Shown in pieces: positions 7,877-45,937 of a stretch of 55,927 nucleotides of DNA (positions are counted from its first letter, which is position 1; every line of letters starts with the position of its first letter). Source of the stretch: Candidatus Nitrosopelagicus sp. (GTDB lineage: Archaea > Thermoproteota > Nitrososphaeria > Nitrososphaerales > Nitrosopumilaceae); NCBI GenBank assembly GCA_028345965.1, contig JAOMEP010000006.1, forward strand, positions 1 through 55,927. The letters are read 5' to 3'. A model generated the notes under the pieces. It made no database searches. It worked only from the letters and a program-made list of their open reading frames with translations, and was not told the DNA's origin. The position numbers and the translations under genes are program-made.

Positions 7877-10318
7877 TTTTCTAATTATTAAAACTGCAAT
7901 AATACTAAAAATAGGAATAACTAATAACACGTACCAATAATTTACTTCTGATTCTTTTATGTCACTAATTGTCTCTACCTTTGGAATTTCTTTATCATTT
8001 GAAATTATCATGAAACTTTTTGAGTACTCATATGGTTTCAGAACATCATCTGATGCTGCAAAAATTTTGATAGTATGAACTCCTTCACTATTTACTGAAT
8101 TTCTATCTAAATTGATACTTGCCATATTATTCACTATATCTTTAGTTCCATTTAGAATGATTTTACCTTCTGAATTTACTATAAAGTAATGAATTTCTGA
8201 CGAGTTTTCTGTTGAAACAAGAATTTTTTCATTTGAACCTAAAACATATGGTTGTGCAAACTCAACTGAGTTGATTGATGGAAATTTAACATCTTCAAAC
8301 TCCTTCCATTTTCCTTGCTCAAAAACATAATTTCCATAATCAAATGATTTGATAACTATCGTCCTTGAATCTGGTGAATATCTGTCTAGATAAAATGGAC
8401 CATTACTAATTACTGCATGGTTGTTTTCATCAATCCATTCTTGACTGGAATAATATCTGATATTCTGAAATCCATTTTGTGGATTGAATTGTTTTAGTGC
8501 ATTTGGTATGTGTTCATTTTCCTCAAAAGTATTCAATTGTATCTTTACTTGATTTGCATCATTTGGAATTATCAATGAAAGCCAATTGATATTTTTTGTA
8601 ATTGATTCTGTACGTGAAAATGAGCTTTTTCCATCAACTACAATTTGTTCCATTGATGCCATAATTTCCCACGGCATACTGCTCCAAACACTTCCCCATG
8701 ATGCAATCTCTCCTGAATCAAAATGCCAAAAATCAGTATACACTTCAATTGTATTATCCCCAATTACACGAATTCCCTTCATTGTATTCAAAATCTGAGA
8801 TGCTTGTGGGGAAAAATCAGCATCATATGTTCTATCATCTTCAGTTCTTTCTGAACCCCATTCTGACAGAAAGTACACTGAATAGATTATGTCATTCATG
8901 TTCATCTCTTGGCCATGATGCCATTGATTAAATTTCAAATCATATGTAATCTTACTTTTTGCAGAAATTCCATTTCCAACTTTATCCCATTTTTCTGAAT
9001 CAGGATTCCATTTTATTGCATCATTTGGAACATCCACTGATGATGCAATTCCATTTGTTTCTACTTCCCATGAACTTCGTATTGGCATCATCTCTCCTGA
9101 AAATGGATGTCCTGTTAAAATTGGGTCTGTAATTGAGAGCCAAATTTGATTACTGTATGTATCACCTAATCCTCCAATAGGATTCCATGCTGCTTGATAA
9201 ATTTGCTTTACACCTACATCTAGTGTTCCTGAATCAGTTCTAACATTAATCGGTGTGAATCTACTTGGAACTCCAGCTCCTAATGCATTGATTATTCCAT
9301 CTACCTCTTGATTCACAACATATTGATCAATTTTACTTGCAAGAAATATTCGAACCGATTCATTTACGCCTTCTTTCATTGCCTCTTTGATTATACTGGT
9401 TCTTTCATCTTTATCATTAAATTCTCCAGAGTAAATTCTTTGAGTCAATTCATCTAATTTTTCATTTTCATAATTCCAGTTTGATGGGTTATTGTTTCCA
9501 GGCATGCTTGAAAACCATGGAGAATACATTTGGGCAAGTGTCACCGAATCATATCTTGTAAAACCTGAACTGCCCCATCCTTCAGTGTATAAACTCCATT
9601 TCTGTTCCGCAGGATTTGAACCATAAACCACAACATATGCCTTATTCAAATCTCCAAATTCTTTATTCACCTTAAATCCAATTTCTTCCAACTCTGATGA
9701 TAGAATTTCCCCTATCGCTTTTCTAACAGGATCATCACTTCTGATAAAAAATGTAATTTCTATTGGTTCATTTTCATAATTCCATATTCCATCAATTTTC
9801 TCTGCTCCACGTATTGTCAATTCATTTGTAATCACTTTCTCTGCAAATGATGGATTGTATCTAAACTGAAAAGTCTCAATCACATCTAAAACTCTCAAAT
9901 ATTCTGCAGAAAAACTTCCATAATTTGAAAACATTGATGTCCCAAATCCTCCTAGTAATTCATTTACAATCAATTCCCTATCAACCAGAAAATTTACCGC
10001 ATATCGTATCTCTTGAATTGAAAAGGGATTGAATGGACCTTCGTCTGTAGGATTTAATAAAATACTGTAGTATCCTCCAGTTGATTCAAACACCTTCAAC
10101 TTCTCTCTAGATTCGGAATCTTCTATTCTGTCTGAAGAAATTCTATAATAGTACATATCGAGATTTCCATTTTTGACCTCTTCTAATGCTGTATTTTCAT
10201 CAAGATATTGTATGAACTTTATCTCATCAACATACGTACCTTTTTGAGCAAATGCTGGTGGAATTATAGATATTAAACAAATAATGATAATTATTTTAAA
10301 AATTTTCAACTGTTTCAA
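7850..10318 (-). CDS. membrane-anchored ABC-type peptide/solute-binding protein (SBP_bac_5)
   Basis: 822-aa extracytoplasmic binding protein of the family that feeds oligopeptide or dipeptide ABC importers. It has an N-terminal signal peptide (ends near PPAFAQ), a long periplasmic-binding fold (for example REKLKVFESTGGYYSILLNP, IQEIRYAVNFLVDRE, ITYDLKFNQWHHGQEMN) and a C-terminal beta domain. A final transmembrane helix (WYVLLVIPIFSIIAVLII) is followed by RKSR and a short tail. C-terminal anchoring replaces the lipid anchor of bacteria. No permease or ATPase lies beside it; the only opp-type ATPase in the window is at 22.1-22.9 kb. Confidence 0.85.
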   Translation of the reverse strand: MKQLKIFKIIIIICLISIIPPAFAQKGTYVDEIKFIQYLDENTALEEVKNGNLDMYYYRISSDRIEDSESREKLKVFESTGGYYSILLNPTDEGPFNPFSIQEIRYAVNFLVDRELIVNELLGGFGTSMFSNYGSFSAEYLRVLDVIETFQFRYNPSFAEKVITNELTIRGAEKIDGIWNYENEPIEITFFIRSDDPVRKAIGEILSSELEEIGFKVNKEFGDLNKAYVVVYGSNPAEQKWSLYTEGWGSSGFTRYDSVTLAQMYSPWFSSMPGNNNPSNWNYENEKLDELTQRIYSGEFNDKDERTSIIKEAMKEGVNESVRIFLASKIDQYVVNQEVDGIINALGAGVPSRFTPINVRTDSGTLDVGVKQIYQAAWNPIGGLGDTYSNQIWLSITDPILTGHPFSGEMMPIRSSWEVETNGIASSVDVPNDAIKWNPDSEKWDKVGNGISAKSKITYDLKFNQWHHGQEMNMNDIIYSVYFLSEWGSERTEDDRTYDADFSPQASQILNTMKGIRVIGDNTIEVYTDFWHFDSGEIASWGSVWSSMPWEIMASMEQIVVDGKSSFSRTESITKNINWLSLIIPNDANQVKIQLNTFEENEHIPNALKQFNPQNGFQNIRYYSSQEWIDENNHAVISNGPFYLDRYSPDSRTIVIKSFDYGNYVFEQGKWKEFEDVKFPSINSVEFAQPYVLGSNEKILVSTENSSEIHYFIVNSEGKIILNGTKDIVNNMASINLDRNSVNSEGVHTIKIFAASDDVLKPYEYSKSFMIISNDKEIPKVETISDIKESEVNYWYVLLVIPIFSIIAVLIIRKSRLSTNNK

Positions 10319-34710: not shown

Positions 34711-35397
34711 TCAGGACTTTGCTTCCCTTTCTCTTTGAGCCTTGAATTTTCCACGAAATGCAAACGCTGCAATTATGGTTCCTACAAATGGGGCTGTCCA
34801 ATATAGCCACAAATTTTCCATTACTCCTGATAATAACGCTGGTGCAAGCGCACGGGCTGGATTCATTGAAGCACCTGAAATAAATGCCAAAAACAAAATA
34901 TCTAATCCCACAATGCCTCCTATCGCTACGCCGCTAAATCCTCTCAAACCTTTTGTATACACGACATAAAAGATGACTCCCATGAGCATCGCAGATGCCA
35001 AAACTTCAACAGGAAATATCAAAAGCATGGAAAAATCAAAGTTTGGCGCATTTGCACCAAGATCTGCTTTATCCCCAATTATACTTAGAACAAATAATGA
35101 ACCTAGTATAGCACCAATTATCTCTGCTGCAAAATAATACACTACCTGAATTTTTGAAATATGTCCTGTAATGTAATATCCAATTGTTACAGCGGGATTG
35201 AAATGTGCAAGTGATATCTTTCCAAATGAATAAACTCCAATTAGTAGTGCTACAAATGGTGCAACTGCTGCAAATGGAATTCCCAGTTCTCCGTTAAACA
35301 TCTCTGCGTCCAAAACAATTGAGCCTGTTGCAAAAACTACAAGAATGAAGGTTCCAACTAATTCAACTGTAAAAATTTGTAAATTTGAATATGTCAT
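34711..35397 (-). CDS. MIP-family aquaporin/aquaglyceroporin (AqpS-like)
   Basis: 228-aa channel with six transmembrane helices and both half-helix motifs: HFNPAVT (first NPA) and SGASMNPARALAP (second NPA). It overlaps the upstream arsC by one base and lies in an operon with it, divergent from arsR. This is the AqpS arrangement known from Sinorhizobium meliloti, where the channel lets arsenite made by ArsC leave the cell down its gradient. The family is certain; the arsenite role is inferred from context. Confidence 0.9.
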   Translation of the reverse strand: MTYSNLQIFTVELVGTFILVVFATGSIVLDAEMFNGELGIPFAAVAPFVALLIGVYSFGKISLAHFNPAVTIGYYITGHISKIQVVYYFAAEIIGAILGSLFVLSIIGDKADLGANAPNFDFSMLLIFPVEVLASAMLMGVIFYVVYTKGLRGFSGVAIGGIVGLDILFLAFISGASMNPARALAPALLSGVMENLWLYWTAPFVGTIIAAFAFRGKFKAQREREAKS

Positions 35398-35804
35398 TAT
35401 TTTTCATCATCTATTGATTTGATCAAATTCAAAACTTCAGATTTTATCTGATCACGAATCTCTCTGACCTGTTCTATTGTTTTTTCTTTAGGATCTGGTA
35501 TATTCCAGTCAATTACATCTTTTACAAAAAGTGCTGGACATGATTCTTTATCCATACATCCCATGTTAACTGTCTTAAATGAATTAGAAATCATTGATTG
35601 AGATAGTGTTTTTGGAGATTGATTTGCCATGTTAATTCCAATTTCTTTCATTACTTGTATAACGACTGGATTTAGCTTTGTTGAAGGAATTGTTCCTGCA
35701 CTAATTACATTAAATTTATCTTCTGAGAATTTTTTGAAAAATGCTTCTGCCATCTGACTGCGACCTGCATTTTCTACACATACAAACAGAACGTCTTTAG
35801 TCAT
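35397..35804 (-). CDS. arsC: arsenate reductase (low-molecular-weight phosphatase type)
   Basis: 135 aa of the LMW protein-tyrosine-phosphatase fold. The P-loop CX5R is CVENAGRS (about residues 9-16), the acid loop is IDWNIPDPKE and the pair of redox cysteines is NMGCMDKESCPALF (Cys-x5-Cys), which together give the three-cysteine relay of thioredoxin-coupled arsenate reductases. It converts arsenate to arsenite for exit through the adjacent aquaporin. Its start lies 41 bp from the divergent arsR. Confidence 0.88.
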   Translation of the reverse strand: MTKDVLFVCVENAGRSQMAEAFFKKFSEDKFNVISAGTIPSTKLNPVVIQVMKEIGINMANQSPKTLSQSMISNSFKTVNMGCMDKESCPALFVKDVIDWNIPDPKEKTIEQVREIRDQIKSEVLNLIKSIDDEK

Positions 35805-35845: not shown

Positions 35846-36145
35846 ATGAATGGACCTGCTCTTTTGAAGTGTATTTGTGATGAAACCAGATTTGAAATTT
35901 TAGAATTATTACAAATAGACGATGAATTATGTGTAAATGATTTTGTTGATAAATTAGAAAAAGATCAACCGCTTGTTTCGCATCATCTCAAAACTCTAAA
36001 GCAATGTGGAATTGTAAAATCAAGAAACGAGGGAAAAAAGGCAATGTATTCAATTTCTAATCCTCAACTATCTACTTTGATATCTGCTGTGACTAAAACA
36101 AGCAATAAAATCCCAACTTTATGTACTGATGAAAACTCTTGCTAG
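35846..36145 (+). CDS. arsR: ArsR-family metalloregulator
   Basis: 99-aa winged-helix repressor. The helix-turn-helix region (FVDKLEKDQPLVSHHLKTLKQCGIVKSRNEGKKAMYSIS) is typical ArsR. Canonical arsenic binding in the alpha-3 helix (ELCVCDL) is changed to ELCVNDF with a single Cys (C29); other cysteines are C9, C11, C93 and C99, in the N- and C-terminal helices. A different thiolate site is therefore likely, as in other As(III) ArsRs with altered sites. Divergent from arsC, convergent (4-bp overlap) with the P-II-like gene. Confidence 0.85.
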   Translation: MNGPALLKCICDETRFEILELLQIDDELCVNDFVDKLEKDQPLVSHHLKTLKQCGIVKSRNEGKKAMYSISNPQLSTLISAVTKTSNKIPTLCTDENSC

Positions 36146-36444
36146 AACTTTTCTGTTCTAACTACGCCAACATCACTAACGTACAAAATTATGGTAAAAT
36201 CTGGAAATAATGTTCTAGATATATCCTCAATTACTGCTGATAATTTCTCTTCACGCATAATTACCTCCACTTTGACATTTTTTTCGGCTTGTATTCCTTG
36301 ACCTCTTAATCCCTTTTCTCCATTACCATCAACTTCATAAGATGTGTATCCTGTAATTTCATGATTCTTCAAAATCTCAATGACATTTTTCTGTGCCAAT
36401 ATTTCACAGGTGATTGTAAGTAATTTCACATCATAAAGTTTCAT
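36142..36444 (-). CDS. P-II-like regulator paired with SbtA (SbtB-like)
   Basis: 100-aa small trimeric-type signalling protein. The fold pattern is clear: LYDVKLLTITCEILAQKNVIEILKNHEITGYTSYEV (beta1-alpha1-beta2), a T-loop segment with GEKGLRGQGIQAEKN, then VKVEVIMREEKLSAVIEDISRTLF and IILYVSDVGVVR. No canonical T-loop Tyr or C-terminal CGPxGC loop. It overlaps sbtA by 4 bp, which in cyanobacteria marks SbtB controlling bicarbonate uptake via adenyl nucleotides. Its ligand here is unknown. Confidence 0.82.
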   Translation of the reverse strand: MKLYDVKLLTITCEILAQKNVIEILKNHEITGYTSYEVDGNGEKGLRGQGIQAEKNVKVEVIMREEKLSAVIEDISRTLFPDFTIILYVSDVGVVRTEKF

Positions 36445-37523
36445 ATGAACACCCTTGTAACGTAATTGAATAAGTCTATTGCTTCTTCACCATGTACCCA
36501 CGTTGAAACGGTGAACATGATTGGTAGTAACACGATAATATTGTATGGGAATGTAATTCCTAAAGCTGATGTAATGTATAGACTTGGATTAGCTTGAGGT
36601 ATGGCATGACGTAAAACAGCTGGTGCTGCAATAAATGATGCACTAGCCAAAAGTAATCCAAACATAACTGCCCCGCCTAAACTTAATCCCAATGCTGTTG
36701 AAACTAGTACGCCGATTATTCCATTAATTGTTGGCATTATTATTGCAAATGAGGTAAGAAAAACTCCAACCTTTTTGATATCCTCTAATCTTTGTCCTGC
36801 AATTATTCCCATTTCAATCATAAAAATTACTATTGCTCCTGTAAACAGATCATCAAAAACAATACTGATTGGTTCAAAACCTTCTTCCCCAATTATGTAT
36901 CCAATTACAATACTTCCAAGTAAAATTACTATTGCTTTTCCTGTAATTGATTCTTTTAACACCTGAGAAAGTTTTGTTTTAGTTTCTTTCATTCCCATGT
37001 CGATATCAGATACTTTGTCACCTGAAAATGACTGTTTTTTTGTACGAATTTGTTTTGATACTGCCATATTTGTCAAAAATATTGCCAGGATGAATGCTAC
37101 CGGTTCTAACACTGCAAGAATTGCTGCCAAATATCCTTCTGATGTAACTCCTTGATTTTTGAGAAATGACAATCCTACTGAGAATGTTACTGCTCCAACT
37201 GCACCGTATGTGGATGCTAATGCGTATGAATCAAAGATGTTGAATTTCCCTAATCTTCTTAGAATTTGATAATGGTTCAATGTGAATAATAATGACAGAC
37301 CTATTGCAACTAGCATTGGTACTAACATCTCCTCAAAACCCGTCTTTCTCATCTCTATTCCTCCATGAAGGCCGATAGCAGCTAGGAGGTATATTGGCAA
37401 AAACTCTGAAATTGCTTCAGGAATTTTTAAATCAGATTTTATTCGTGCTGCAATAATCCCAAACAAGAAGAATAGGATGATTGGAGTTAGCAGATTCGAT
37501 TGGATTAATTCTAAAATATCCAT
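36441..37523 (-). CDS. sbtA: SbtA-family sodium-dependent bicarbonate transporter
   Basis: 360-aa membrane protein with about 10 helices. Characteristic stretches are LPIYLLAAIGLHGGIEMRKTG (about 42-62), a long GAVGAVTFSVGLSFL (about 107-121) and FGLLLASASFIAAPAVLRHAIPQANPSLYI (about 289-318). These match the SbtA (DUF897) family. It precedes the P-II-like gene with a 4-bp overlap. Bicarbonate uptake fits the 3-hydroxypropionate/4-hydroxybutyrate cycle of ammonia oxidisers, whose carboxylases consume bicarbonate. Confidence 0.88.
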   Translation of the reverse strand: MDILELIQSNLLTPIILFFLFGIIAARIKSDLKIPEAISEFLPIYLLAAIGLHGGIEMRKTGFEEMLVPMLVAIGLSLLFTLNHYQILRRLGKFNIFDSYALASTYGAVGAVTFSVGLSFLKNQGVTSEGYLAAILAVLEPVAFILAIFLTNMAVSKQIRTKKQSFSGDKVSDIDMGMKETKTKLSQVLKESITGKAIVILLGSIVIGYIIGEEGFEPISIVFDDLFTGAIVIFMIEMGIIAGQRLEDIKKVGVFLTSFAIIMPTINGIIGVLVSTALGLSLGGAVMFGLLLASASFIAAPAVLRHAIPQANPSLYITSALGITFPYNIIVLLPIMFTVSTWVHGEEAIDLFNYVTRVFI

Positions 37524-37589
37524 TAGCTATATTTGAAAAAATTTTCTGCTGAAATAAAAATCCAGAGGTCATTTTTGATGCCTATAGTG

Positions 37590-37645
37590 ATAATCATTTG
37601 ATATGCATTTGATATAATATTCCATAGTTTCGAAATAATGATTAT
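37590..37645. promoter_or_regulatory. tandem and inverted repeats between sbtA and the P-II fusion gene
   Basis: CATTTGATAT occurs twice at 37595-37604 and 37606-37615, 11 bp apart start-to-start, one DNA turn. ATAATCATT (37590-37598) has its complement AATGATTAT at 37637-37645. The cluster lies 30-90 bases before the gene at 37676 and would also be upstream of divergent sbtA. Confidence 0.45.
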
Positions 37646-37675
37646 GTATAATAAAGAATAATTCAGCGAAATATT

Positions 37676-38242
37676 ATGAAGAAGATTGAAGCTATAATCA
37701 ATCGAAAAAATTACCCGGTTCTTCGTGAAAAATTAGATTCTTTGGGTATTGACATTATCGATAAACGAAATTTAGAAGACAGTAAATTCATCAGTGAATC
37801 AAAAGGTTCTCGTGCTGGTGGAACTGGTGTTAGATCTACAATGCTTGCAAAAATTGAATTGGCTATGCAAGACAAAGAAGCACGTGCGGTCTTGGAAATA
37901 ATTTCTAAAAATTCAGGTCTTCCTCAATCTATCAAGAGTAAAATTTTTGTCTTTGATATGGAAGAAAGTATTGATCTATCCACTCTTGAAGGTCAGGCTG
38001 ATGTAGAACCTGAAGAAAAACCTATTCCTGTTAGATTTACTACAAAACGTAATAGATTGGTTCCACTTCAAAAGCGAACCTTGTACAAATTAGAACAATA
38101 TTACGATGAGCATAGTGAAATTTTAGAATCTGACTATAGAATTCGTTCATTTAGTGATTTTGTTAATTATTGTATCTTGAAATATCTCCCAACCTTAGAT
38201 AAGCAATTAAAGAATCCAACAATGCTTTACGAAGATATTTAG
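37676..38242 (+). CDS. P-II-domain protein with a novel C-terminal extension
   Basis: 188 aa. Residues 1-105 follow the P-II fold: MKKIEAIINRKNYPVLREKLDSLG, a glycine/serine-rich T-loop-like segment (SKGSRAGGTGVRST), then IELAMQDKEARAVLEIISKNSG and SKIFVFDMEESIDL. An acidic linker (about 110-117) follows. The extension (about 120-188) is basic then helical (TTKRNRLVPLQKRTLYKLEQ; IRSFSDFVNYCILKYLP), like a small helix-rich or ribbon-helix-helix-type module. Its role may be DNA or protein binding, but this is inference. Convergent with the small gene at 38252. Confidence 0.65.
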   Translation: MKKIEAIINRKNYPVLREKLDSLGIDIIDKRNLEDSKFISESKGSRAGGTGVRSTMLAKIELAMQDKEARAVLEIISKNSGLPQSIKSKIFVFDMEESIDLSTLEGQADVEPEEKPIPVRFTTKRNRLVPLQKRTLYKLEQYYDEHSEILESDYRIRSFSDFVNYCILKYLPTLDKQLKNPTMLYEDI

Positions 38243-38251
38243 TAATTTTTT

Positions 38252-38371
38252 TTAAATATAATCTGCAAACAAATACAAACCAAGTAAGGTCATACCTACT
38301 GCTGCAAAGCCAAGTTTAGCAACAAAGATTTTTGATTTTCTAATTTGAGTTGTAATTTGTTGTAGTTTCAA
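38252..38371 (-). CDS. 39-aa membrane protein at the end of the glnK operon
   Basis: TTG start at 38369-38371 overlapping the stop of the 91-aa gene in a TTGA arrangement. It encodes a polar N-terminus (KLQQITTQIRKSKIF) and one transmembrane helix (AKLGFAAVGMTLLGLYLFADYI). The overlap supports translation as the fourth gene of the operon. Confidence 0.5.
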   Translation of the reverse strand: MKLQQITTQIRKSKIFVAKLGFAAVGMTLLGLYLFADYI

Positions 38372-38643
38372 TTTATTTTGATTAACCTTCGTTTTGTTCC
38401 ACGTTCTGTGGTAATATATGCCATTTTTGGTTTGGATGACTCAATTTCTGAAGAATTTTCCAAATATTTTGTTACAGTTCCTCTTGCTGAGGTGATCACA
38501 GTTTTATTTCTTTTAGATAAAATGACTGATGCGGTTCTTCTTGATTGATATTCTTTGAATGTTTGTCCTGCCCAGTTGTAGCTGATATCATCTTCAACTA
38601 TCTTGTTTGAGGTTCCACGTTTTGTTATTAATCTAAGGCTCAT
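38368..38643 (-). CDS. 91-aa unassigned basic protein in the glnK operon
   Basis: A basic, soluble protein with repeated short motifs: ITKRGTSNKIVEDD, VILSKRNKTVITSARGTV, and ITTERGTKRRLIK. The recurring RGT triplet suggests two or three copies of a small strand-turn unit. No family recognised. It is 6 bp after the 40-aa TM gene and overlaps the next gene by 4 bp. Its conservation alongside glnK is worth checking. Confidence 0.55.
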   Translation of the reverse strand: MSLRLITKRGTSNKIVEDDISYNWAGQTFKEYQSRRTASVILSKRNKTVITSARGTVTKYLENSSEIESSKPKMAYITTERGTKRRLIKIN

Positions 38644-38649
38644 GTTTCC

Positions 38650-38772
38650 TCAGTTCACCAACATTATCATAATTAGAGGTGGAATTACGACTATTACGCC
38701 TATAATTGTGCATTTTAGATAGTCTAATTTGGTTAATTTTGAGAATTTACTTCTATCGAGTGATAATTTCAT
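38650..38772 (-). CDS. 40-aa single-pass membrane protein in the glnK operon
   Basis: Starts at ATG 38770-38772, one base past the glnK stop (an upstream ATG at 38848-38850 would overlap glnK heavily). A basic N-terminus (KLSLDRSKFSKLTKL) leads a transmembrane helix (TIIGVIVVIPPLIMIMLV). No family recognised. Confidence 0.55.
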   Translation of the reverse strand: MKLSLDRSKFSKLTKLDYLKCTIIGVIVVIPPLIMIMLVN

Positions 38773-38773
38773 T

Positions 38774-39103
38774 TTAGATAACTTCTTCCCCTTCGTTTCC
38801 GGATTTGATATCAATTGCCCGTAACATTTGTGAGATGAAAATTTTACCATTTCTTGCGTTCTTCTTGATAATGTCTACGGTTTTTTCTTCTTTTGACTCT
38901 GGAACTACTACCATCATTCTATATTTGTCGCCAAAATGAGGTGTAAACACTTCCATACCTTTTGATGTGTGAATTTCAGGTTCAGTTTTTGCACCTCGAC
39001 CTCTAACTTTGATAATTGTTAGTCCGCCAACGTCAATTTCTTTTAATCCTTCACTGATTTCCATCACGTCGTTTTCTGCAAGTATGACTTCAAGTTTTAA
39101 CAT
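38774..39103 (-). CDS. glnK: P-II nitrogen regulator, GlnK-like
   Basis: 109-aa sensor of 2-oxoglutarate and adenylates, expected to block or tune Amt. Beta1-alpha1 (LKLEVILAENDVMEISEGLKEI), a canonical-like GLTIIKVRGRGAKTEPE, T-loop (TSKGMEVFTPHFGD) and YRMMVVVPE are visible. The uridylylated Tyr of bacteria is absent, as is usual in archaea, and the C-loop is short (NARNGKIFISQ). It is divergent from amt by 112 bp and starts an operon with three small unknown genes. Confidence 0.85.
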   Translation of the reverse strand: MLKLEVILAENDVMEISEGLKEIDVGGLTIIKVRGRGAKTEPEIHTSKGMEVFTPHFGDKYRMMVVVPESKEEKTVDIIKKNARNGKIFISQMLRAIDIKSGNEGEEVI

Positions 39104-39169
39104 GAATTATTTTATCTGTCAAAGTAATTAATAATTTAGAAATTGTACATCTTTTGATTATCACTGATA

Positions 39170-39180
39170 ACCAAATTGGT
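39170..39180. promoter_or_regulatory. inverted repeat in the glnK/amt intergenic region
   Basis: ACCAA-A-TTGGT, an 11-bp inverted repeat, lies 36-46 bases before amt. A TTAAAT-like TATA (about 39187-39192) follows, about 26 bases before the amt ATG. The repeat is a possible operator for divergent glnK/amt, or a coincidence. Confidence 0.35.
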
Positions 39181-39215
39181 AAACTGTTAAATGAAAAAAA
39201 CTTTCAAAATTTTTA

Positions 39216-40508
39216 ATGATAGATACCGGAGACACAGCATGGATGTTAATAGCAGGATGCTTGGTTCTGTTAATGATCCCAGCACTTGGATTATTCGAGT
39301 CGGGTCTTTTGCGAAAGAAAAATGTGGTTTCGATTTTCATGCAGATCTTCTTTGGAATGTCACTCCTAAGTGTAATGTGGTTTGTCTTCGGATTCAGTCT
39401 ATCATTTGGTCCATCAACACAGGGTATTATTGGTAATCTTGATTGGACATTTTTGAAAGGAATTCCTTGGGATGCACCTCTTGAACAGTACGCGCCAACA
39501 ATTCCTGGTGTATTATTTGTAAAGTTCCAATTGATGTTTGCATGTATCACACCTTTACTACTAACTGGAACTATCGCTGAAAGAATGAAGTTCAGCTCTT
39601 TTATCATATTCATATCTGCATGGTCAATGCTCATCTATTACCCAATCGTTCACATGGTTTGGGGCGGTGGATGGTTAGCAGAACTCGGTGTAGTTGACTT
39701 TGCTGGTGGTATCGTTATTCACACTACTGTAGGAATGGCAGCACTTGCAGCCGCTTTAGTACTTGGAAAAAGAAGAGGATTTGGCCCTGCCATAAACATT
39801 CCTCACAGCATTCCTCTTGCAGTATTAGGATCTTCATTATTATGGCTAGGATGGTTCGGATTTAACGCAGGAAGCGCACTCGCATCTGGCGGTGTAGCAG
39901 GAAATACTGTAATTGTAACTCACTTGGCATCCTCTGTATCTGCTCTAATCTGGGCTGGATTGTCTTGGATGCGTACAGGAAAACCATCTATTGTTGCTAC
40001 AATAAACGGCGCTATTGCCGGTCTTGCAGGAATTACCCCTGCATCAGGCTTTGTCAGCGTAGAACATGCATTTGTTCTTGCAATAGCAATTGGTATCTTA
40101 TCATACGGAGGAGTCGTACTAATTAGAGATAAATTAAAAATTGATGATTCACTTGATGTAAGTTCCGTGCACGGTATTGCAGGAATTGTAGGTGCACTTG
40201 GAATTGGAATATTTGCAAGCACTTTGATTAATCCTGCAGGTGTTGACGGCTTGCTCATTTCTGGAAGTCTGGATCAAATCTGGATACAGGGTGTTGGAAT
40301 CGCAGTAGCTGCTGCTATGGGCTTTGGTGGAACATGGCTACTTTTACAGTTAATCAAACATCTTATCGGTATACGTGTCGAACCAGAACAAGAAGACGTT
40401 GGTTTGGATATCAGTGAGCATGCAGAACAAGCTTACTCCGATGAAGAAGAATTCAAGTTAAGTCTTGATGAAAAATTAGAGTCATCAAAAAAGAAATCTA
40501 ACTCCTGA
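39216..40508 (+). CDS. amt: ammonium transporter (Amt family)
   Basis: 430-aa membrane protein with eleven helices. The opening (DTAWMLIAGCLVLLMIPALGLFESGLLRKKN) is the Amt signature and the paired pore histidines are at YPIVHMVWGGGW and SSVHGIAGIVG. Imports the energy and nitrogen source of an ammonia oxidiser. The acidic C-terminal tail (about 390-430) is longer and more charged than in many Amt proteins. Divergent from glnK. Assignment is firm. Confidence 0.96.
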   Translation: MIDTGDTAWMLIAGCLVLLMIPALGLFESGLLRKKNVVSIFMQIFFGMSLLSVMWFVFGFSLSFGPSTQGIIGNLDWTFLKGIPWDAPLEQYAPTIPGVLFVKFQLMFACITPLLLTGTIAERMKFSSFIIFISAWSMLIYYPIVHMVWGGGWLAELGVVDFAGGIVIHTTVGMAALAAALVLGKRRGFGPAINIPHSIPLAVLGSSLLWLGWFGFNAGSALASGGVAGNTVIVTHLASSVSALIWAGLSWMRTGKPSIVATINGAIAGLAGITPASGFVSVEHAFVLAIAIGILSYGGVVLIRDKLKIDDSLDVSSVHGIAGIVGALGIGIFASTLINPAGVDGLLISGSLDQIWIQGVGIAVAAAMGFGGTWLLLQLIKHLIGIRVEPEQEDVGLDISEHAEQAYSDEEEFKLSLDEKLESSKKKSNS

Positions 40509-40549
40509 TGTCTGATGGATGACGATAAAGAATACGAAGAGAGACCTGA

Positions 40550-40939
40550 ATGGGAATGGCTGAAGAAATAGTAACTACACAATCTTATGAAAAACTTTGT
40601 AGTGATGTACTTTATTCAAATGAAAGTGTTCGTTTTGTAGGTTTGGTAAATAACAAATCTGATTTACTACACAGTGTTCAAAAAAAAGATTTAGATCCAC
40701 TTTTGGATGATGATGAAATAAAAATCTCTATAAATTATTCATTAGAAAGATGGAGAAAAGCACAAAATCTTTCATTTCGTTTAGGTCATGAAAAACTCAC
40801 CCTAACTGAATATGAACATGTAACTTTAATTTCAATTCCATATGATGGAAAATTATTACTAATCAGTACTCAACCAACTATACATTATCATGAAATGATA
40901 CAAGCAATCATTTCTGTAATTCCTCCGTGGGAGAATTAA
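40550..40939 (+). CDS. unassigned conserved-looking protein after amt
   Basis: 129 aa, soluble, starting ATG at 40550 (MGMAEEIV; the internal ATG at 40556 is an alternative). A balanced alpha/beta pattern (YEKLCSDVLYSNESVRFVGLVN, YEHVTLISIPYDGKLLLIS, HEMIQAIISVIP) resembles roadblock/longin-type or PAS-like folds, but I cannot name the family. It lies between amt and the reductase gene with a 4-bp gap, so it may be part of the same transcription unit. Confidence 0.6.
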   Translation: MGMAEEIVTTQSYEKLCSDVLYSNESVRFVGLVNNKSDLLHSVQKKDLDPLLDDDEIKISINYSLERWRKAQNLSFRLGHEKLTLTEYEHVTLISIPYDGKLLLISTQPTIHYHEMIQAIISVIPPWEN

Positions 40940-40943
40940 TAAT

Positions 40944-41774
40944 TTGGAAAACGCTACTGTTAGTTATATTCAATTACTACGAGAAGATTTAGCTATATTT
41001 CGAGTGGTTCCTGAAGGTCCTTTTCCTGAATACAAAGCAGGTCAGTTTCTCACTTTAGGACTACCTGTAAAAAGTGAAAATAATCGTGTAATCAATCGTG
41101 CATATTCAATTGCATCTCATCCTGAAAATAAAAAATATATCGAGTTTGTCATTCGGTGGGTAAGAAAACCATATCCTGGAAGATTAACCACTGCAATGTT
41201 TAATCTCAAAGAAGGTGATCCAATTCAATGGAGAAAAGCTAATGGCACTCTTACAATTAATGACAAATTACCAAACGGTGAACCTGACAAACGAAGAATT
41301 GTCTGTATCGGGGGTGGAACCGGATTGGCACCGTTTGTTAGTTTTGCACAACATCTTCATGATGTAGGAGATAAGCGTGAACTAGTTGTTTTACACGGAG
41401 CAAGTTACGTTGATGAACTAAGTTACAGAGAACGTCTGACGGATTTAGAACTTGAAAGTATTGATAGAGGTGCAGACAAATGGAATTTCAAATATCGAGC
41501 AGCAATTAGTAGACCACAAGAATGGCTAAATCGTTCTTGGACCGGACAGGTGGGAAGAGTAGAACAATTTCTAAGAGCAAGACCTGGACGAGTATCTCCA
41601 TTAGAAGAATTAGTTGGTGAAAAAATTACACAAGAAAATACCATGTTTTACATTTGTGGATGGCAAGGAACAATCGATGGTACACTAGATTATCTTGGAA
41701 ATAAGGAGTTTGTAACAGAGAGAAATAAACGCGAAGATGGTAGTTACGAAGTTAAATTCGAATCTTACGGATAA
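40944..41774 (+). CDS. ferredoxin-NADP reductase family flavoprotein
   Basis: 276 aa from a TTG start. FAD-binding RAYSIASHPE (about 52-61), pyridine-nucleotide motif IVCIGGGTGLAPFVSF (about 117-132), and a C-terminal segment with FYICGWQGTID are typical of the FNR superfamily (bacterial Fpr-like). It probably moves electrons between ferredoxin and NADP(H). The C-terminal Trp/aromatic group of plant enzymes is absent. It is downstream of the amt-linked gene. Confidence 0.87.
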   Translation: MENATVSYIQLLREDLAIFRVVPEGPFPEYKAGQFLTLGLPVKSENNRVINRAYSIASHPENKKYIEFVIRWVRKPYPGRLTTAMFNLKEGDPIQWRKANGTLTINDKLPNGEPDKRRIVCIGGGTGLAPFVSFAQHLHDVGDKRELVVLHGASYVDELSYRERLTDLELESIDRGADKWNFKYRAAISRPQEWLNRSWTGQVGRVEQFLRARPGRVSPLEELVGEKITQENTMFYICGWQGTIDGTLDYLGNKEFVTERNKREDGSYEVKFESYG

Positions 41775-41792
41775 TAAATTTCTGTGTCATAT

Positions 41793-41830
41793 TACGGCGT
41801 TTAACAAAACAGATCAGTCGTATATACTAG
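41793..41830 (+). promoter_or_regulatory. 38-bp promoter element, copy 1
   Basis: TACGGCGTTTAACAAAACAG followed by ATCAGTCGTATATACTAG, identical to copy 2 at 41972-42009. It ends in a TATATACTAG TATA-like box. The next ATG (41848) starts 17 bases after the element. Confidence 0.7.
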
Positions 41831-41847
41831 CTTCACTTCTCAAAAGC

Positions 41848-41943
41848 ATGGGTTCAATTGATTTAGGACATACCGAAAATGAATGGGGTTCAAAGAAAAA
41901 AAAGAGATCTGTAATTATAGCATATGATGTTTTAGAAAAATAA
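41848..41943 (+). CDS. 31-aa basic peptide under the duplicated promoter
   Basis: ATG at 41848 placed exactly as in the ferritin-like gene, 17 bases after promoter copy 1. MGSIDLGHTENEWG is followed by SKKKKRSVII and ends VLEK. No similarity to the ferritin-like protein. The shared promoter is the main evidence that it is expressed. Confidence 0.45.
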   Translation: MGSIDLGHTENEWGSKKKKRSVIIAYDVLEK

Positions 41944-41951
41944 TTTTTTTT
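41944..41951 (+). terminator. T-rich run after the 31-aa peptide
   Basis: Eight T residues directly follow the TAA at 41941-41943 and precede the second promoter copy, matching the T-rich ends used by archaeal RNA polymerase. Confidence 0.4.
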
Positions 41952-41971
41952 AAAATATTACTCTGTTATAC

Positions 41972-42009
41972 TACGGCGTTTAACAAAACAGATCAGTCGT
42001 ATATACTAG
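41972..42009 (+). promoter_or_regulatory. 38-bp promoter element, copy 2
   Basis: Identical in 38 bases to copy 1. The TATA-like box ends at 42009 and the next ATG of the ferritin-like gene is at 42027, again 17 bases later. The preceding 8 bases are similar but not identical to those before copy 1. Confidence 0.75.
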
Positions 42010-42026
42010 TATTGCATTTTTGGCTT

Positions 42027-42509
42027 ATGGGCAAAAAGAATATTGAAATTGCTGGAGCTGCAGAAGGAACAATCGAAATGCTAAAAAAAGCATATGCATT
42101 AGAAATGTCCGCATTTCATTACTGGTTTTACATTGACCAGTATGCAGAAGGATTGGGATTCTTGCACAGTGATTTCTATTCAGAAAGTGCTAACGACGAG
42201 TTAGAACATGCAAAAAAAGTTGCATTGAGATTGGATCAGTTGGGAGCAAAAGCAACCGACAATCCACAAGACTGGGCAGAAGTTTCTGGACTAGGAAACT
42301 TAGAACCTGGTAACCATGTTACATTGCGAAGTGCATTAGAACACGCACTTGAATTCGAAAGAACTGCAATAGAACATTACAATGAACTTGCAAGTAGCAC
42401 TCAAGGAAAAGACCACATAACATACCATCTCGCACTAGACTTGGTAACTGATGAAGCAAAAGACGAACAAGACATCGAAGACATACTAGACAAACTGGAA
42501 ATTTCCTAA
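42027..42509 (+). CDS. ferritin-like (DPSL/bacterioferritin-like) protein
   Basis: 160 aa, four-helix bundle of the ferritin superfamily. The motifs are AYALEMSAFHYWFYI (helix A, carboxylate), ANDELEHAKKVALRL (E-x2-H), ALEFERTAIEHYNEL, and VTDEAKDEQDIEDIL. It resembles Dps-like archaeal proteins that oxidise and store iron with peroxide. The start at ATG 42027 is chosen because of the conserved 17-base gap from the promoter. Its identical promoter with the 31-aa gene suggests shared control. Confidence 0.8.
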   Translation: MGKKNIEIAGAAEGTIEMLKKAYALEMSAFHYWFYIDQYAEGLGFLHSDFYSESANDELEHAKKVALRLDQLGAKATDNPQDWAEVSGLGNLEPGNHVTLRSALEHALEFERTAIEHYNELASSTQGKDHITYHLALDLVTDEAKDEQDIEDILDKLEIS

Positions 42510-42514
42510 TTTCC

Positions 42515-42522
42515 TTTTTTTT
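42515..42522 (+). terminator. T-rich run after the ferritin-like gene
   Basis: Eight T residues lie between the convergent ferritin-like and 81-aa genes, consistent with archaeal termination. Confidence 0.4.
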
Positions 42523-42527
42523 AGAAA

Positions 42528-42773
42528 TTATTTAGATTTTGATTTTTGTGATTCTTTTGGATGTTTTCTTGGTAAATCTAATCCTACTATACTCATCATA
42601 GATTCTCCAATTGGTTCATAAATCGATTTGAGTGATTCTTCATCATAATATTTTGCAATCTCGTGTAACTTTGCTTCAATCTTTTTTTGTTCTATGCGAA
42701 TCAAAATACTTCTTGCGATGAGCGCTTTTAATTCATCAATCTTATTTTCTGGTATTGTATTTTTTGTTTTCAT
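42528..42773 (-). CDS. 81-aa unassigned helical protein
   Basis: Soluble, highly charged and probably helical (ENKIDELKALIARSILIRIEQKKIEAKLHEI), with a Lys/Ser-rich tail (KHPKESQKSKSK). No family recognised. It is 2 bp after the gene at 42776 on the same strand, so the pair forms an operon convergent with the ferritin-like gene. Confidence 0.55.
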   Translation of the reverse strand: MKTKNTIPENKIDELKALIARSILIRIEQKKIEAKLHEIAKYYDEESLKSIYEPIGESMMSIVGLDLPRKHPKESQKSKSK

Positions 42774-42775
42774 GA

Positions 42776-42940
42776 TTATGGTGCATCTCGAACTTTCACT
42801 ACAGAGCCATATGTGAGCTGAATCTCATTTAGTGAATATTTGATAGTCTCTAATGGGTCCAACATGTGTTCGTCAGCATCGCAAATGAAAATTGGAAGTT
42901 CTTCTTCTACTTCACTCTCAATTTCAGATATTTGTTTCAT
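42776..42940 (-). CDS. 54-aa acidic protein
   Basis: ATG at 42938-42940 preferred (MKQISEIESEVEEELP); the longer form adds 11 residues. Acidic, with a segment IFICDADEHMLDPLETI and a hydrophobic C-terminus. No family recognised. First gene of a two-gene unit with the 81-aa protein, divergent from the phosphate module. Confidence 0.5.
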   Translation of the reverse strand: MKQISEIESEVEEELPIFICDADEHMLDPLETIKYSLNEIQLTYGSVVKVRDAP

Positions 42941-43127
42941 GTTCGTTTGAACTTCTTTTCTAACATAAATCAAATTGTTATTCTAAGATCTTGTTCTAAG
43001 ATTATCAAATCAAACTCTTATGGGTGATTGATAAACAAAATCTTTTGATCGCGTGACATGTCTGCTATATAGTTGCCATATAGAATATACTGATCAGGGT
43101 TAACTCCAAAATTTCATTTCGTTTGTT

Positions 43128-43757
43128 ATGGTACAATTCTTCTCTTGGGTAAAATCAAATGAGAAAGAGCTTTTAACTATTTTGGAAAATCTAGCAAAAA
43201 AAGCTGTTGAAGCATCAGATGCAGTTTTGGAATTAATGGATGATCCAACCAATAAAGATAAGATAGCACACATTTCAGAAATTGAAACTGAGGCAGACGT
43301 TCTAACACGAGATATCTTTTCAGAATTAAACAAAACATTCATCACTCCACTTGACAGAGAAGACATGCAAAGAGTTGCTTCAAAGATAGACGACATTATT
43401 GATTTCATGGATGGAATTGGCGCAAGATTTGCCAGCTATAAAATTACCGAATCACCTCCACACACAAAACAAATGGCCGAAGAGTTAGCCAAGGCAACAA
43501 GAGAGGTTGAATACATGGTAGGAAAATTAGGTAATGTAAAAAATCCTAAATTAATGATAGAACATTGTAGAAATACAAGTGTAATCGAACATGTCATTGA
43601 TGATTTGTACAGATTAGCAATATCTGAACTCTTTGAAAGTAACGATCCAATAAAAATAATCAAACTAAAAGACATCTATGAAACTATGGAAACCGCATCA
43701 GACAGATGCGTAGATGTTGCAGATGTCGTAGAAGATATTGTTCTAAAATATACCTAG
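43128..43757 (+). CDS. DUF47/PhoU-like phosphate transport regulator
   Basis: 209-aa helical protein of the DUF47 family, normally adjacent to PiT transporters. E-x3-D-like repeats typical of PhoU folds (IETEADVLTRDIFSEL; PLDREDMQRVASKIDDIIDFMDGIG; MIEHCRNTSVIEHVIDDLYRLAISELF) are visible. It likely modulates Pi uptake. It precedes the PiT gene by 9 bp, in one transcription unit. Confidence 0.88.
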   Translation: MVQFFSWVKSNEKELLTILENLAKKAVEASDAVLELMDDPTNKDKIAHISEIETEADVLTRDIFSELNKTFITPLDREDMQRVASKIDDIIDFMDGIGARFASYKITESPPHTKQMAEELAKATREVEYMVGKLGNVKNPKLMIEHCRNTSVIEHVIDDLYRLAISELFESNDPIKIIKLKDIYETMETASDRCVDVADVVEDIVLKYT

Positions 43758-43766
43758 TGAAAAAAT

Positions 43767-44753
43767 ATGATAGAAATAGCGATTATTGGAATTATTATCG
43801 CTTTGGTATTTGATTTTGTTAATGGATTTAATGATTCAGCAAACTCTGTAGCCACCGTAATCGGTACACGTGTTTTAAAACCAATTCATGCTGTCACAAT
43901 TTCAGCTGCTGCAAATTTTGCTGGACCGTTTGTTTTTGGAGTTGCAGTTGCAACAACAATAGCAAAAGGAATTGTCAGTCCTGATGATATTACAGTCTAC
44001 ATGATAATAGGAGGTTTGGCAGGTGCAATCACATGGAGTACTCTATGTACATACTTTGGATTACCAATCTCAAACAGCCATTCATTAATAGGAGGAATAA
44101 TGGGTGCAGGAATTGCAGGATTAGGATTTGAAAAATTAGTATATGACGGATTAGCCAAAGTGTTTACCGGAATAATTGTTGCACCTATAGGAGGAATGAT
44201 GTTTGGCATTGCAGCAACTGGACTAATTATCTACTTTTTCGCAAGAAAAAAACCTGCAATAGTGAATCGGACATTTGGACGATTACAAATAATTTCATCA
44301 GCTTGGTTTGCTTTAACACATGGTGCAAACGATGGACAAAAAACTATGGGAATTATTGTTTTGATTTTATTCTCCGTAGGATTGATTGAAGAACTTGAAA
44401 TGCCTTTATGGGTAATATTTGCAGCAGCTGCGGCCATGGGATTAGGTACATTCTTTGGAGGATACAAAGTAATCAAAACCTTAGGCGTCAAAGTTACACG
44501 ATTAAAACCGTATCAAGGATTTGCAGCTGAAACTAGTGGCGGATTAATGCTTGCAGTCTTTGCAACATTAGGAATTCCTGCAAGTACAACTCATGCAATC
44601 ACTGGAACGATTATGGGTGCAGGTTCAGCGCGAAGAATACGTGCTGTAAGATGGAGGGTAAGTAGACAAATTATTTTTTCATGGGTCATAACAATTCCAG
44701 GCGCTGCAGGTTTAGGAATTGCATTTACATACATAATTCATTTGTTTTTGTAA
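43767..44753 (+). CDS. pit: inorganic phosphate transporter (PiT family)
   Basis: 328-aa permease with about 10 helices. The twin PiT signatures are DFVNGFNDSANSVATVIG (about 16-33) and FALTHGANDGQKTMGI (about 186-201). It imports phosphate as metal phosphate coupled to protons or sodium. It sits 9 bp after the DUF47 regulator and is followed by an AbrB-PhoU regulator. Firm assignment. Confidence 0.93.
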   Translation: MIEIAIIGIIIALVFDFVNGFNDSANSVATVIGTRVLKPIHAVTISAAANFAGPFVFGVAVATTIAKGIVSPDDITVYMIIGGLAGAITWSTLCTYFGLPISNSHSLIGGIMGAGIAGLGFEKLVYDGLAKVFTGIIVAPIGGMMFGIAATGLIIYFFARKKPAIVNRTFGRLQIISSAWFALTHGANDGQKTMGIIVLILFSVGLIEELEMPLWVIFAAAAAMGLGTFFGGYKVIKTLGVKVTRLKPYQGFAAETSGGLMLAVFATLGIPASTTHAITGTIMGAGSARRIRAVRWRVSRQIIFSWVITIPGAAGLGIAFTYIIHLFL

Positions 44754-44788
44754 AATTAATTTCAAATTACAGTCACTCGATAATTGTT

Positions 44789-44842
44789 GGCACTATGTAA
44801 CTTATTCTATAACTCTGTTATTATAACATGGAACTATGTTGC
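44789..44842. promoter_or_regulatory. imperfect direct repeat before the AbrB-PhoU gene
   Basis: GGCACTATGTAAC (44789-44801) and GGAACTATGTTGC (44830-44842) match at 10 of 13 positions, 41 bases apart. They are candidate sites for a dimeric regulator, possibly the AbrB-PhoU protein itself. Confidence 0.35.
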
Positions 44843-44875
44843 CCCCTTATATCCTCTGTATTTTTTGAAAAAGTT

Positions 44876-45937
44876 ATGATGTCTACAAAGACCAAAAACA
44901 TTGAACGTAGAAATATCCAGATTAGCGGAGGCTCTACCTATGTAATTTCACTTCCAAAAAAATGGATTGAAAAACTAAATCTAAAAAACGGAGATTCCAT
45001 GCAAATTGTAAACAATGCAAACAATTCTATCACACTTTCTGCTGATTCTATTCAAGAAGAATCAACAACATATCCTGAAATTAAAATCAAAAAAACAGAC
45101 TCTGTAGAGTCAATAAAGCGAAAAATCATCTCATTATACATCTCTGGGCACAATTTTATCGTATTAAATTCACCACGAGCAAAAATTGAAACAGATGTGC
45201 GCTCTATGGTTATGAAATTAATTCGAACCAAGTTTGTAGGAACTGAAATTATAGAATCTGATTCGGAGTCAATAACAATCAAGGTACTTACCGCAACTCC
45301 TGAGATGAAACTAGAGTTGGCATTCAACAGAATGTTCAAATCAACATCAAACATGTTTTCTGAAACAATGCATGCAATTGAAAAAGGGGATTCTGAATAT
45401 GCACAAGAAATCGTTCACATGGATGATGAGATTGACCGCTTTTCATATTATCTTACCCGAAACTTGGTTATGGCCTTAGATGATAGCAACATCTTATCTG
45501 CATTGGGATTAGAAAAAACATCTCAGGCAATCGGCTACAAACGAATCATCAACTGTGTTGAAAGAATTGCAGACCATATCACTACAATTGCAAAACTGGT
45601 TGTTGATATGGATAAAAATATCTCAAAAATCCCAAAAGACATCTTGAGTGCATATCAAAAAACAATTGAACTCTTTGATAAAACCATGATTCTCATATCT
45701 GAGAGAAATTACTCACAGGCAGAAAAACATGCTGAAGAAATAGAGGCACTAATTGATGAGACAAACGCCTTGGTAAAATCAACTAAATCAAATTCTGAAG
45801 CATCTGTCGTATATCAAAATTTGATATATCAAAACAGACGAATCTTAGATTACATCTTAGATGTATCTGAGGTTGTCATGAATGATACAGTAGATTCTAT
45901 TGTTTCTATGAAAACAATTGAGAATACTGAGGCTTAA
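44876..45937 (+). CDS. AbrB-type DNA-binding domain fused to PhoU
   Basis: 353 aa with ATG at 44876 preferred (44879 is possible). Residues 1-50 are a SpoVT/AbrB swapped-hairpin module (GGSTYVISLPKKWIEKLNLKNGDSM). Residues 150-345 are a PhoU helical domain (EIVHMDDEIDRFSYYLTRNLV; INCVERIADHITTIAKLVVDM; ILDYILDVSEVVMNDTVDSI). Such proteins are probable phosphate-responsive transcription regulators in archaea. The coupling of a DNA-binding domain to a phosphate-signal domain supports a role controlling the adjacent pit module. Confidence 0.85.
   Translation: MMSTKTKNIERRNIQISGGSTYVISLPKKWIEKLNLKNGDSMQIVNNANNSITLSADSIQEESTTYPEIKIKKTDSVESIKRKIISLYISGHNFIVLNSPRAKIETDVRSMVMKLIRTKFVGTEIIESDSESITIKVLTATPEMKLELAFNRMFKSTSNMFSETMHAIEKGDSEYAQEIVHMDDEIDRFSYYLTRNLVMALDDSNILSALGLEKTSQAIGYKRIINCVERIADHITTIAKLVVDMDKNISKIPKDILSAYQKTIELFDKTMILISERNYSQAEKHAEEIEALIDETNALVKSTKSNSEASVVYQNLIYQNRRILDYILDVSEVVMNDTVDSIVSMKTIENTEA

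Follow-up and report, generated by a model that had tools for sequence, protein, structure and literature searches.

The stretch analysed here (the window) comprises 55 927 nucleotides from a Candidatus Nitrosopelagicus species, an ammonia-oxidizing archaeon (AOA), and is contig 39 of a 1.0 Mb genome in 42 contigs that is 72% complete. It carries a block of genes for an SbtA-family transporter, an ammonium transporter (Amt) and a phosphate transporter (PiT), interspersed with three P-II-type proteins, one of which is a fusion of a P-II domain to a conserved C-terminal tail. An earlier note on this DNA had proposed that the block is a joint control locus for carbon, nitrogen and phosphorus (C/N/P) uptake. 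The arrangement is real but lineage-specific and composite. Comparison with relatives makes it likely that the block consists of independently conserved units, one relocated into the other, which would be under separate control, with the fusion protein as regulator of the ammonium unit.

Genes were called from Pfam domains scored against the family cut-offs, and some were also scored against NCBIfam. All of the genes named in the earlier note (SbtA, SbtB-like P-II, GlnK, Amt, P-II fusion, DUF47, PiT and AbrB-PhoU) are present where it placed them, each above its Pfam cut-off. An ars-like set abuts the SbtB gene and consists of an MIP (aquaporin-type) channel (34711–35397, minus strand; PF00230, under the NCBIfam cut-offs), an LMWP-family protein closest to arsenate reductases (35397–35804, minus strand; PF01451, with best NCBIfam matches TIGR02689 and TIGR02691 under cut-off) and an ArsR/SmtB-type regulator (35846–36145, plus strand; PF01022, with NF033788 over its cut-off), which overlaps the end of sbtB by four bases. 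The SbtB-like P-II protein (36142–36444, minus strand; PF00543) and the SbtA-family (Sbt_1) transporter (36441–37523, minus strand; PF05982) come next, and the P-II fusion (37676–38242, plus strand) is divergent from sbtA. Beyond it lie a 91-residue open reading frame (38368–38643, minus strand; no Pfam match), in which three similar RGT-containing segments were seen by eye, a GlnK-like P-II protein with a shortened B-loop (38774–39103, minus strand; PF00543) and an Amt of the short (Amt1) type (39216–40508, plus strand; PF00909, with TIGR00836 over its cut-off at 403.6 versus 343.3 bits). The remaining genes are all on the plus strand: a DUF6659 protein 3' of amt (40550–40939; PF20364), an FNR-like FAD/NAD(P) oxidoreductase (40944–41774; PF00970 and PF00175), a ferritin-like protein (42012–42509; PF00210), the DUF47/PhoU_div Pit accessory protein (43128–43757; PF01865), the PiT phosphate transporter (PHO4; 43767–44753; PF01384) and a MazE/AbrB-PhoU regulator (44828–45937; PF01895 and PF04014). 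The 91-residue frame, the DUF6659, FNR-like flavoprotein and ferritin-like genes and an 81-residue frame, all inside the block, are not mentioned in the note, and neither is the ars-like set. The three P-II-type proteins do lie within 3 kb, as the earlier note had observed; their PF00543 domains span 36142–39103 and are the only PF00543 matches in this incomplete genome.

The same note had each P-II protein next to the transporter that it would control. This holds for SbtB–SbtA and GlnK–Amt, but the fusion has no transporter of its own and looks like a regulator rather than a transporter sensor. Its residues 1–105 have the P-II fold and match P-II structures, with a PF00543 score barely over the cut-off (26.9 versus 25 bits), and are followed by a conserved, helical C-terminus of 70 residues; PF00543, alignments and AlphaFold2 together make it a candidate transcription regulator. 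In the AlphaFold2 model, strands and helices follow each other as in P-II proteins over residues 2–94, and the tail forms three helices; the mean predicted local distance difference test (pLDDT) score is 70.6, and the tail modelled alone, from four sequences, gave 78.0. The tail carries the strongly conserved motif KRSRLVPLQKxTL...Y[RK]IKSFSDFVNxCIxxYLP, and mean column identity is 67% in the C-terminus versus 56% over the whole protein. By eye, the P-II part is without a canonical B-loop, so the effector cannot be assumed. A search of 121 genomes gave full-length homologues in 25 from the window's family and in six from a second family, another is found in a Nitrosocaldus schleperae metagenome-assembled genome, and a scan of named genomes with a P-II peptide gave at least three fusion relatives among the 25 loci listed. 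The gene travels with glnK–amt and lies by pit in three genomes of another genus. The fusion is similar to NikR-type regulators in that a small ferredoxin-like sensor domain is joined to a DNA-binding part, which in the fusion is putative; it differs in that its sensor is an N-terminal P-II domain and its tail is no more than a possible ribbon-helix-helix (RHH) domain. As to a viral origin, 111 pattern matches in viral contigs included no relative.

Upstream regions (150 bases 5' of each gene) were scanned for conserved elements after near-duplicates and rows less than 45% identical to the window had been removed. TGATWATCA occurs at 18 of the 21 distinct amt upstream regions, compared with 0.03 expected from a mononucleotide shuffle (the sequences are related and not independent), and at 17 of the 20 glnK regions, which are the same intergenic DNA; the corresponding counts are 5/20 for the fusion, 2/27 for sbtA and 0/22 for DUF47. 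At Nitrosocaldus-type loci (L088, L110 and L111) it lies between amt and the fusion. The window has this nitrogen element between glnK and amt (TTTGATTATCA / TGATAACCAAA; 39153–39175) and again as TGATAATCA plus two related copies at 11-base steps (37588–37618). The latter lies in the 152 bases that separate sbtA from the fusion, at 65 bases from the start of sbtA and 58 from that of the fusion. What is rare is the tandem form and where it stands; a single copy is not, since the whole window contains six where 2.4 are expected. The tandem palindrome TGATNATCA has 13 of its 16 sites in 22 genomes at a glnK–amt or fusion promoter. Whole-genome scanning of the 22 with the pattern TGATNATCANNTGATNATCA (11-base period, one mismatch permitted, overlapping sites counted apart) returned 16 sites in 11 genomes, three of them inside reading frames, and none for the backward control; these 11 are among the 16 fusion-bearing genomes, and the other six genomes have no site. 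With the form specific to the genus, 11 of 17 genomes had a total of 15 sites, of which 12 are at fusion promoters, two at glnK–amt and one elsewhere (control 0). Both tandem patterns were derived from these same promoters, and the informative part is therefore their near absence elsewhere. Neither such an operator nor a P-II/DNA-binding fusion of these archaea appeared among the papers listed by searches of an open-access library.

These observations suggest a one-protein regulator, in which the degenerate P-II domain would sense a small effector and the C-terminus would bind TGATNATCA at the fusion's own promoter and at glnK/amt, so that the ammonium unit would be autoregulated. The tail could be an RHH domain with a longer first loop. 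Several results weigh against this reading. The tail has no match in Pfam or Foldseek, and PHROGs, PDB sequences, VIA and AlphaFold2 alone did not identify it either; hhalign of the tail against 13 archaeal RHH_1 segments fell into the RHH register but weakly (P = 0.09), and a profile alignment of the tail at default settings was likewise weak (P = 0.016 over 25 columns), with four of 200 column shuffles scoring equally high. In genome G195, which encodes the fusion, no exact element is present at amt. Even with one mismatch permitted, five of the 16 fusion-bearing genomes (G000, G120, G144, G195 and G025) show no tandem site, and TGATWATCA at the fusion promoter itself (5/20) is confined to the genus of the window and to G162, which belongs to another genus. 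Furthermore, the fusion of G117 (L082, 7626–8204) has one in-frame TGA before the conserved tail, yet the glnK–amt element is kept. The tail of this gene is still readable 3' of the TGA.

The persistence of the element in G117 and the lack of a fold match for the tail would also be expected if TGATNATCA were bound by another regulator, for example of the winged-helix or TFB type, with the fusion tail serving in protein interaction. We regard this as a serious competitor with somewhat less than an even chance. Against it, TGATWATCA is present at 18 of the 19 amt regions from genomes with the fusion and at neither of the two without a full-length fusion (G111 and G189), in a by-eye tally of related sequences from which relatedness was not removed, and palindromes phased at 11 bases suit a small, cooperative DNA-binder. 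The full proposal would be that AOA of two families have a P-II sensor whose short helical tail binds DNA and reads the 11-base-phased TGATNATCA at glnK/amt1 and, in some of them, also at the promoter of its own gene, and that in one oceanic sublineage this switch has moved beside sbtA and wired carbon uptake to nitrogen status; in this complete form we advance it only tentatively. In the cases known to us, P-II signalling runs through partner proteins, and direct DNA binding by a P-II protein, if true, would be a shortcut in that pathway. To our knowledge, little is understood of how AOA choose between assimilating and oxidizing ammonium, and only a few regulators or operators have been defined in them; the fusion and its short, highly position-specific candidate operator are the most valuable lead from this locus.

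The gene order around sbtA was compared in 32 genomes (besides the window, 14 from the same genus, a further 15 from the family and two from other families), with neighbouring genes named by their match to the window proteins and a few also by Pfam. SbtB adjoins SbtA at 25 of 25 loci of one set and seven of eight of a second, and the LMWP and MIP genes follow at every locus of the genus examined and at the six g23 loci (L063–L068). On the other side of sbtA, 19 of the 32 genomes have a phosphate cassette, which is DUF47–pit in 15 (either adjacent or separated from sbtA by no more than the ferritin pair and/or the ammonium genes) and pst–phoU in four (G117 by Pfam; G020, G001 and G021 from order and sequence, by eye). 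No phosphate cassette was recognized beside sbtA in 12 of the 32 (G126, G058, G104, G089, G195, G144, G174, G192, G111, G220, G043 and G143); G006, the two halves of which lie on two contigs, was assigned to neither class. The carbon–phosphate neighbourhood in the earlier claim thus recurs in relatives, and an old unit A may be recognized in it: sbtA–sbtB, flanked by the ars-like set and, at the other end, by a phosphate cassette that is interchangeable. The P-II fusion, glnK and amt1 would form an equally old unit B, which in the window's genus also includes the 91-residue frame (next to glnK there and in G162), DUF6659 and FNR (near amt there and in G162), and which retains its gene order at other genomic positions.

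The two units are largely scattered in close relatives. Among ten single-contig genomes, only G162 has sbtA and the short-type amt close to each other, at 7 kb; the distance exceeds 80 kb in G120, G048, G089, G195, G117, G138, G144, G174 and G111. G192, also a single contig, was omitted because the one complete amt in it belongs to a different type. The joint order of the window is found in five of the 14 other genomes of the genus (G005, G013, G017, G018 and G022), is absent in eight (G120, G014, G003, G012, G008, G020, G001 and G021) and is split over contigs in one. Its presence in separate draft assemblies makes an assembly accident unlikely; in G018 and G022 it occurs without the ferritin-like and 81-residue genes. 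G120 reads AbrB-PhoU, pit, DUF47, the 81-residue frame, ferritin, sbtA and sbtB, and the window corresponds to this order with unit B inserted between sbtA and ferritin. In one sublineage of the genus, unit B would thus have entered unit A between sbtA and the side that carries ferritin and pit, with FNR as its right end and the ferritin-like gene outside it. A 59-base direct repeat (41772–41830 and 41951–42009, 90% identical) surrounds a short frame between FNR and the ferritin-like gene and abuts the right end of unit B; by eye, a piece of it also lies 5' of sbtA in G120.

In G162, units A and B are within about 10 kb of each other in a different order, so that their proximity either originated repeatedly or was passed on by transfer, a point that counts against the reading proposed here. 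Trees of Amt, GlnK and the fusion (ten rows) place G162 inside the window's genus (support 100/99, 100/99 and 100/100, respectively), beside the joint-order sublineage in the Amt tree (100/97) and more weakly there in the GlnK and fusion trees, whereas its SbtA and PiT group with Nitrosopumilus types (100/99 and 100/96). These trees make it probable that unit B passed from one genus to another and again came to lie near sbtA. At this locus (L066), a Nitrosopumilus-type genome carries unit B of the window-genus type beside its own sbtA–pit unit.

A second exchange concerns the phosphate cassette. Identity of the window to G017 is 95–100% from 36.2 kb on but 82–88% over 43.0–45.0 kb (88–92% before 36.2 kb), while identity to G120 is 96–100% over 43.0–45.0 kb and 68–95% elsewhere, except for a 99% block directly before. 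As the DUF47–pit allele (43000–45000) is nearly identical to that of G120 and its flanks match G017/G018, the alignments identify it as a cassette swapped recently by recombination. Exchange of PiT and Pst at this site is already published: the accessible text on Ca. Nitrosopelagicus brevis (PMC9239043) describes Pit and Pst substituting for one another beside phoU, the same genes and alternation as near PhoU here, and lists PhoU, WHTH, MIP, PII and SBT among genes with a high fixation index (FST) between Pacific and Atlantic, and that of PMC7490402 ties pst and pit to phosphate supply. Placement of unit B beside sbtA and the promoter elements are not described in that part of the N. brevis account.

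The pit and pst promoters are marked by an element of their own, CTATATAG..TATAG, which in the window is CTATATAGTTGCCATATAG (43065–43083, 63 bases 5' of DUF47) and would probably be read by a PhoU-type regulator. It has 18 matches in 69 stretches, 16 of them 5' of DUF47, one before pstS (G117) and one before AbrB-PhoU (G111), and two further pst promoters, those of G020 and G001, also have it; its presence at 16 of 27 DUF47 loci, not all, counts against this reading. Genome-wide, a gapped form has seven sites in 21 genomes versus six for the backward control, and all seven are at phosphate promoters (four at DUF47, one each at pstS of G117 and AbrB-PhoU of G111 and, by eye, one at a PstC-like start in G189). 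A tighter form has 11 sites in 20 genomes versus five for the control: nine at DUF47 promoters, that of G003:C34 also at one (as judged by its antisense frame) and that of G138 inside a frame. Given these controls, the evidence for this element is position and conservation, not number. It may mark a second candidate regulon. Nitrogen and phosphate promoters bear two different conserved elements, which goes against the shared control of these sets that had been suggested and leads us to reject joint regulation through one motif.

The traffic of cassettes raises the question of whether unit B simply landed at a rearrangement hotspot, so that its proximity to sbtA is by chance and the element near sbtA serves the fusion only. 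Cassette swapping is in print (PMC9239043, in its accessible text) and is seen in the window at 43.0–45.0 kb, relatives have PiT, Pst or neither beside sbtA, and unit B abuts the duplicated 59-base stretch. Additionally, an element at 62–69 bases from the fusion gene is also present in G120 and G020, where sbtA is elsewhere. Retention of the joint order throughout the sublineage, including the diverged G022, and the recurring closeness of units A and B in G162 speak against chance, and we give this explanation a substantial weight that nevertheless stays below one half. On the preferred reading of relocated but separately controlled units, sbtA alone, divergent from the fusion promoter, could have come under the nitrogen element. 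The two sbtA upstream regions with TGATWATCA are those of the window and G022, both of joint order, and this shared intergenic region is the sole sign of a possible carbon–nitrogen coupling.

Gating of the transporter by the P-II T-loop is known for SbtA–SbtB and AmtB–GlnK, and SbtB and GlnK of the window would by analogy gate their neighbours in the same way. As in AmtB–GlnK, the P-II gene, with its P-II domain, is next to the Amt gene, and a basic residue is kept near the T-loop tip, before Gly-x-Glu (KG.E). Canonical P-II proteins have the B-loop motif TGxxGDGKI and Tyr51 in the T-loop. In contrast to that system, the genes are here divergent, Val occupies the Tyr51 position (by eye), the B-loop is five residues shorter, TGxxGDGKI being absent in 29 of 29 Amt-linked GlnK rows (≥43% identity) and present in seven of 11 more distant P-II rows, and there is an extra P-II-fusion gene. 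Effector sensing by this GlnK may thus differ from the textbook case. P-II genes beside the low-affinity Amt of group 1.1a AOA are noted in the accessible part of PMC4836417, so that the neighbourhood of unit B is already known; the C-terminal extension and the operator-like element are not mentioned in that part.

The window SbtA matches PF05982 over its full length (352.8 bits versus a cut-off of 27; E = 2e-105; Slr1512 SbtA, E = 1.4e-35), and SbtB matches SbtB of the PDB (E = 4.6e-8), with TTHA0516 as the best match (E = 7.7e-13). The pair is homologous over its whole length to the adjacent Sbt_1 transporter and SbtB of cyanobacteria (Slr1512–Slr1513; PDB entries 7CYE and 7CYF). It differs in that SbtB lacks the C-terminal CGPxGC, phosphate and arsenic-like genes are often nearby, and three of the four residues proposed for the bicarbonate site, Ser114, Tyr140, Ser324 and Ser327 (PMC8352866), are replaced: all 34 archaeal sequences have S114G, Y140L and S327A, and Ser324 alone is kept. 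The carbon label of the earlier note is uncertain to that extent, and we file the protein as an SbtA-family transporter with bicarbonate doubtful as its substrate by this residue test. Transport of another anion would be in line with these replacements and with the ArsR, ArsC-like LMWP, MIP and phosphate-transporter genes that flank SbtA at many loci, but appears unlikely. In a comparison covering ten of 18 plasmid records, eight of eight non-cyanobacterial homologues keep only Ser114 and Ser324 (two of two cyanobacterial ones keep all four), and one that lacks Tyr140 and Ser327 adjoins RuBisCO genes, so that these two positions do not decide the substrate; moreover, SbtB remains adjacent. In this sample, the alignment sets the archaeal branch apart by its loss of Ser114.

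Least probable, and in our estimate improbable, is that the three uptake systems are together since they are co-regulated through interacting P-II sensors. In its favour, the window and five other genomes of one sublineage keep the order, G162 has both units close together, three genomes of genus g18 have pit beside a P-II and P-II-fusion pair, and in the window the nitrogen element lies in the intergenic region of sbtA, but the sublineage is narrow with few independent events behind the pattern, the order is absent in the eight genus genomes and nine single-contig genomes listed above, and the separate operators argue against joint C/N/P control. The proximity of uptake genes here would reflect cassette traffic more than joint control.

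Two observations concern loci outside the genus. At the g18 loci (L089, L090 and L091), where pit–DUF47 adjoins the P-II and P-II-fusion genes in another kind of phosphate/P-II link, the P-II proteins keep the full B-loop. In G043, of another family, a ribbon-helix-helix gene (L103, about 9307–9417; G043:C29:20306–20416) lies beside sbtA–sbtB.

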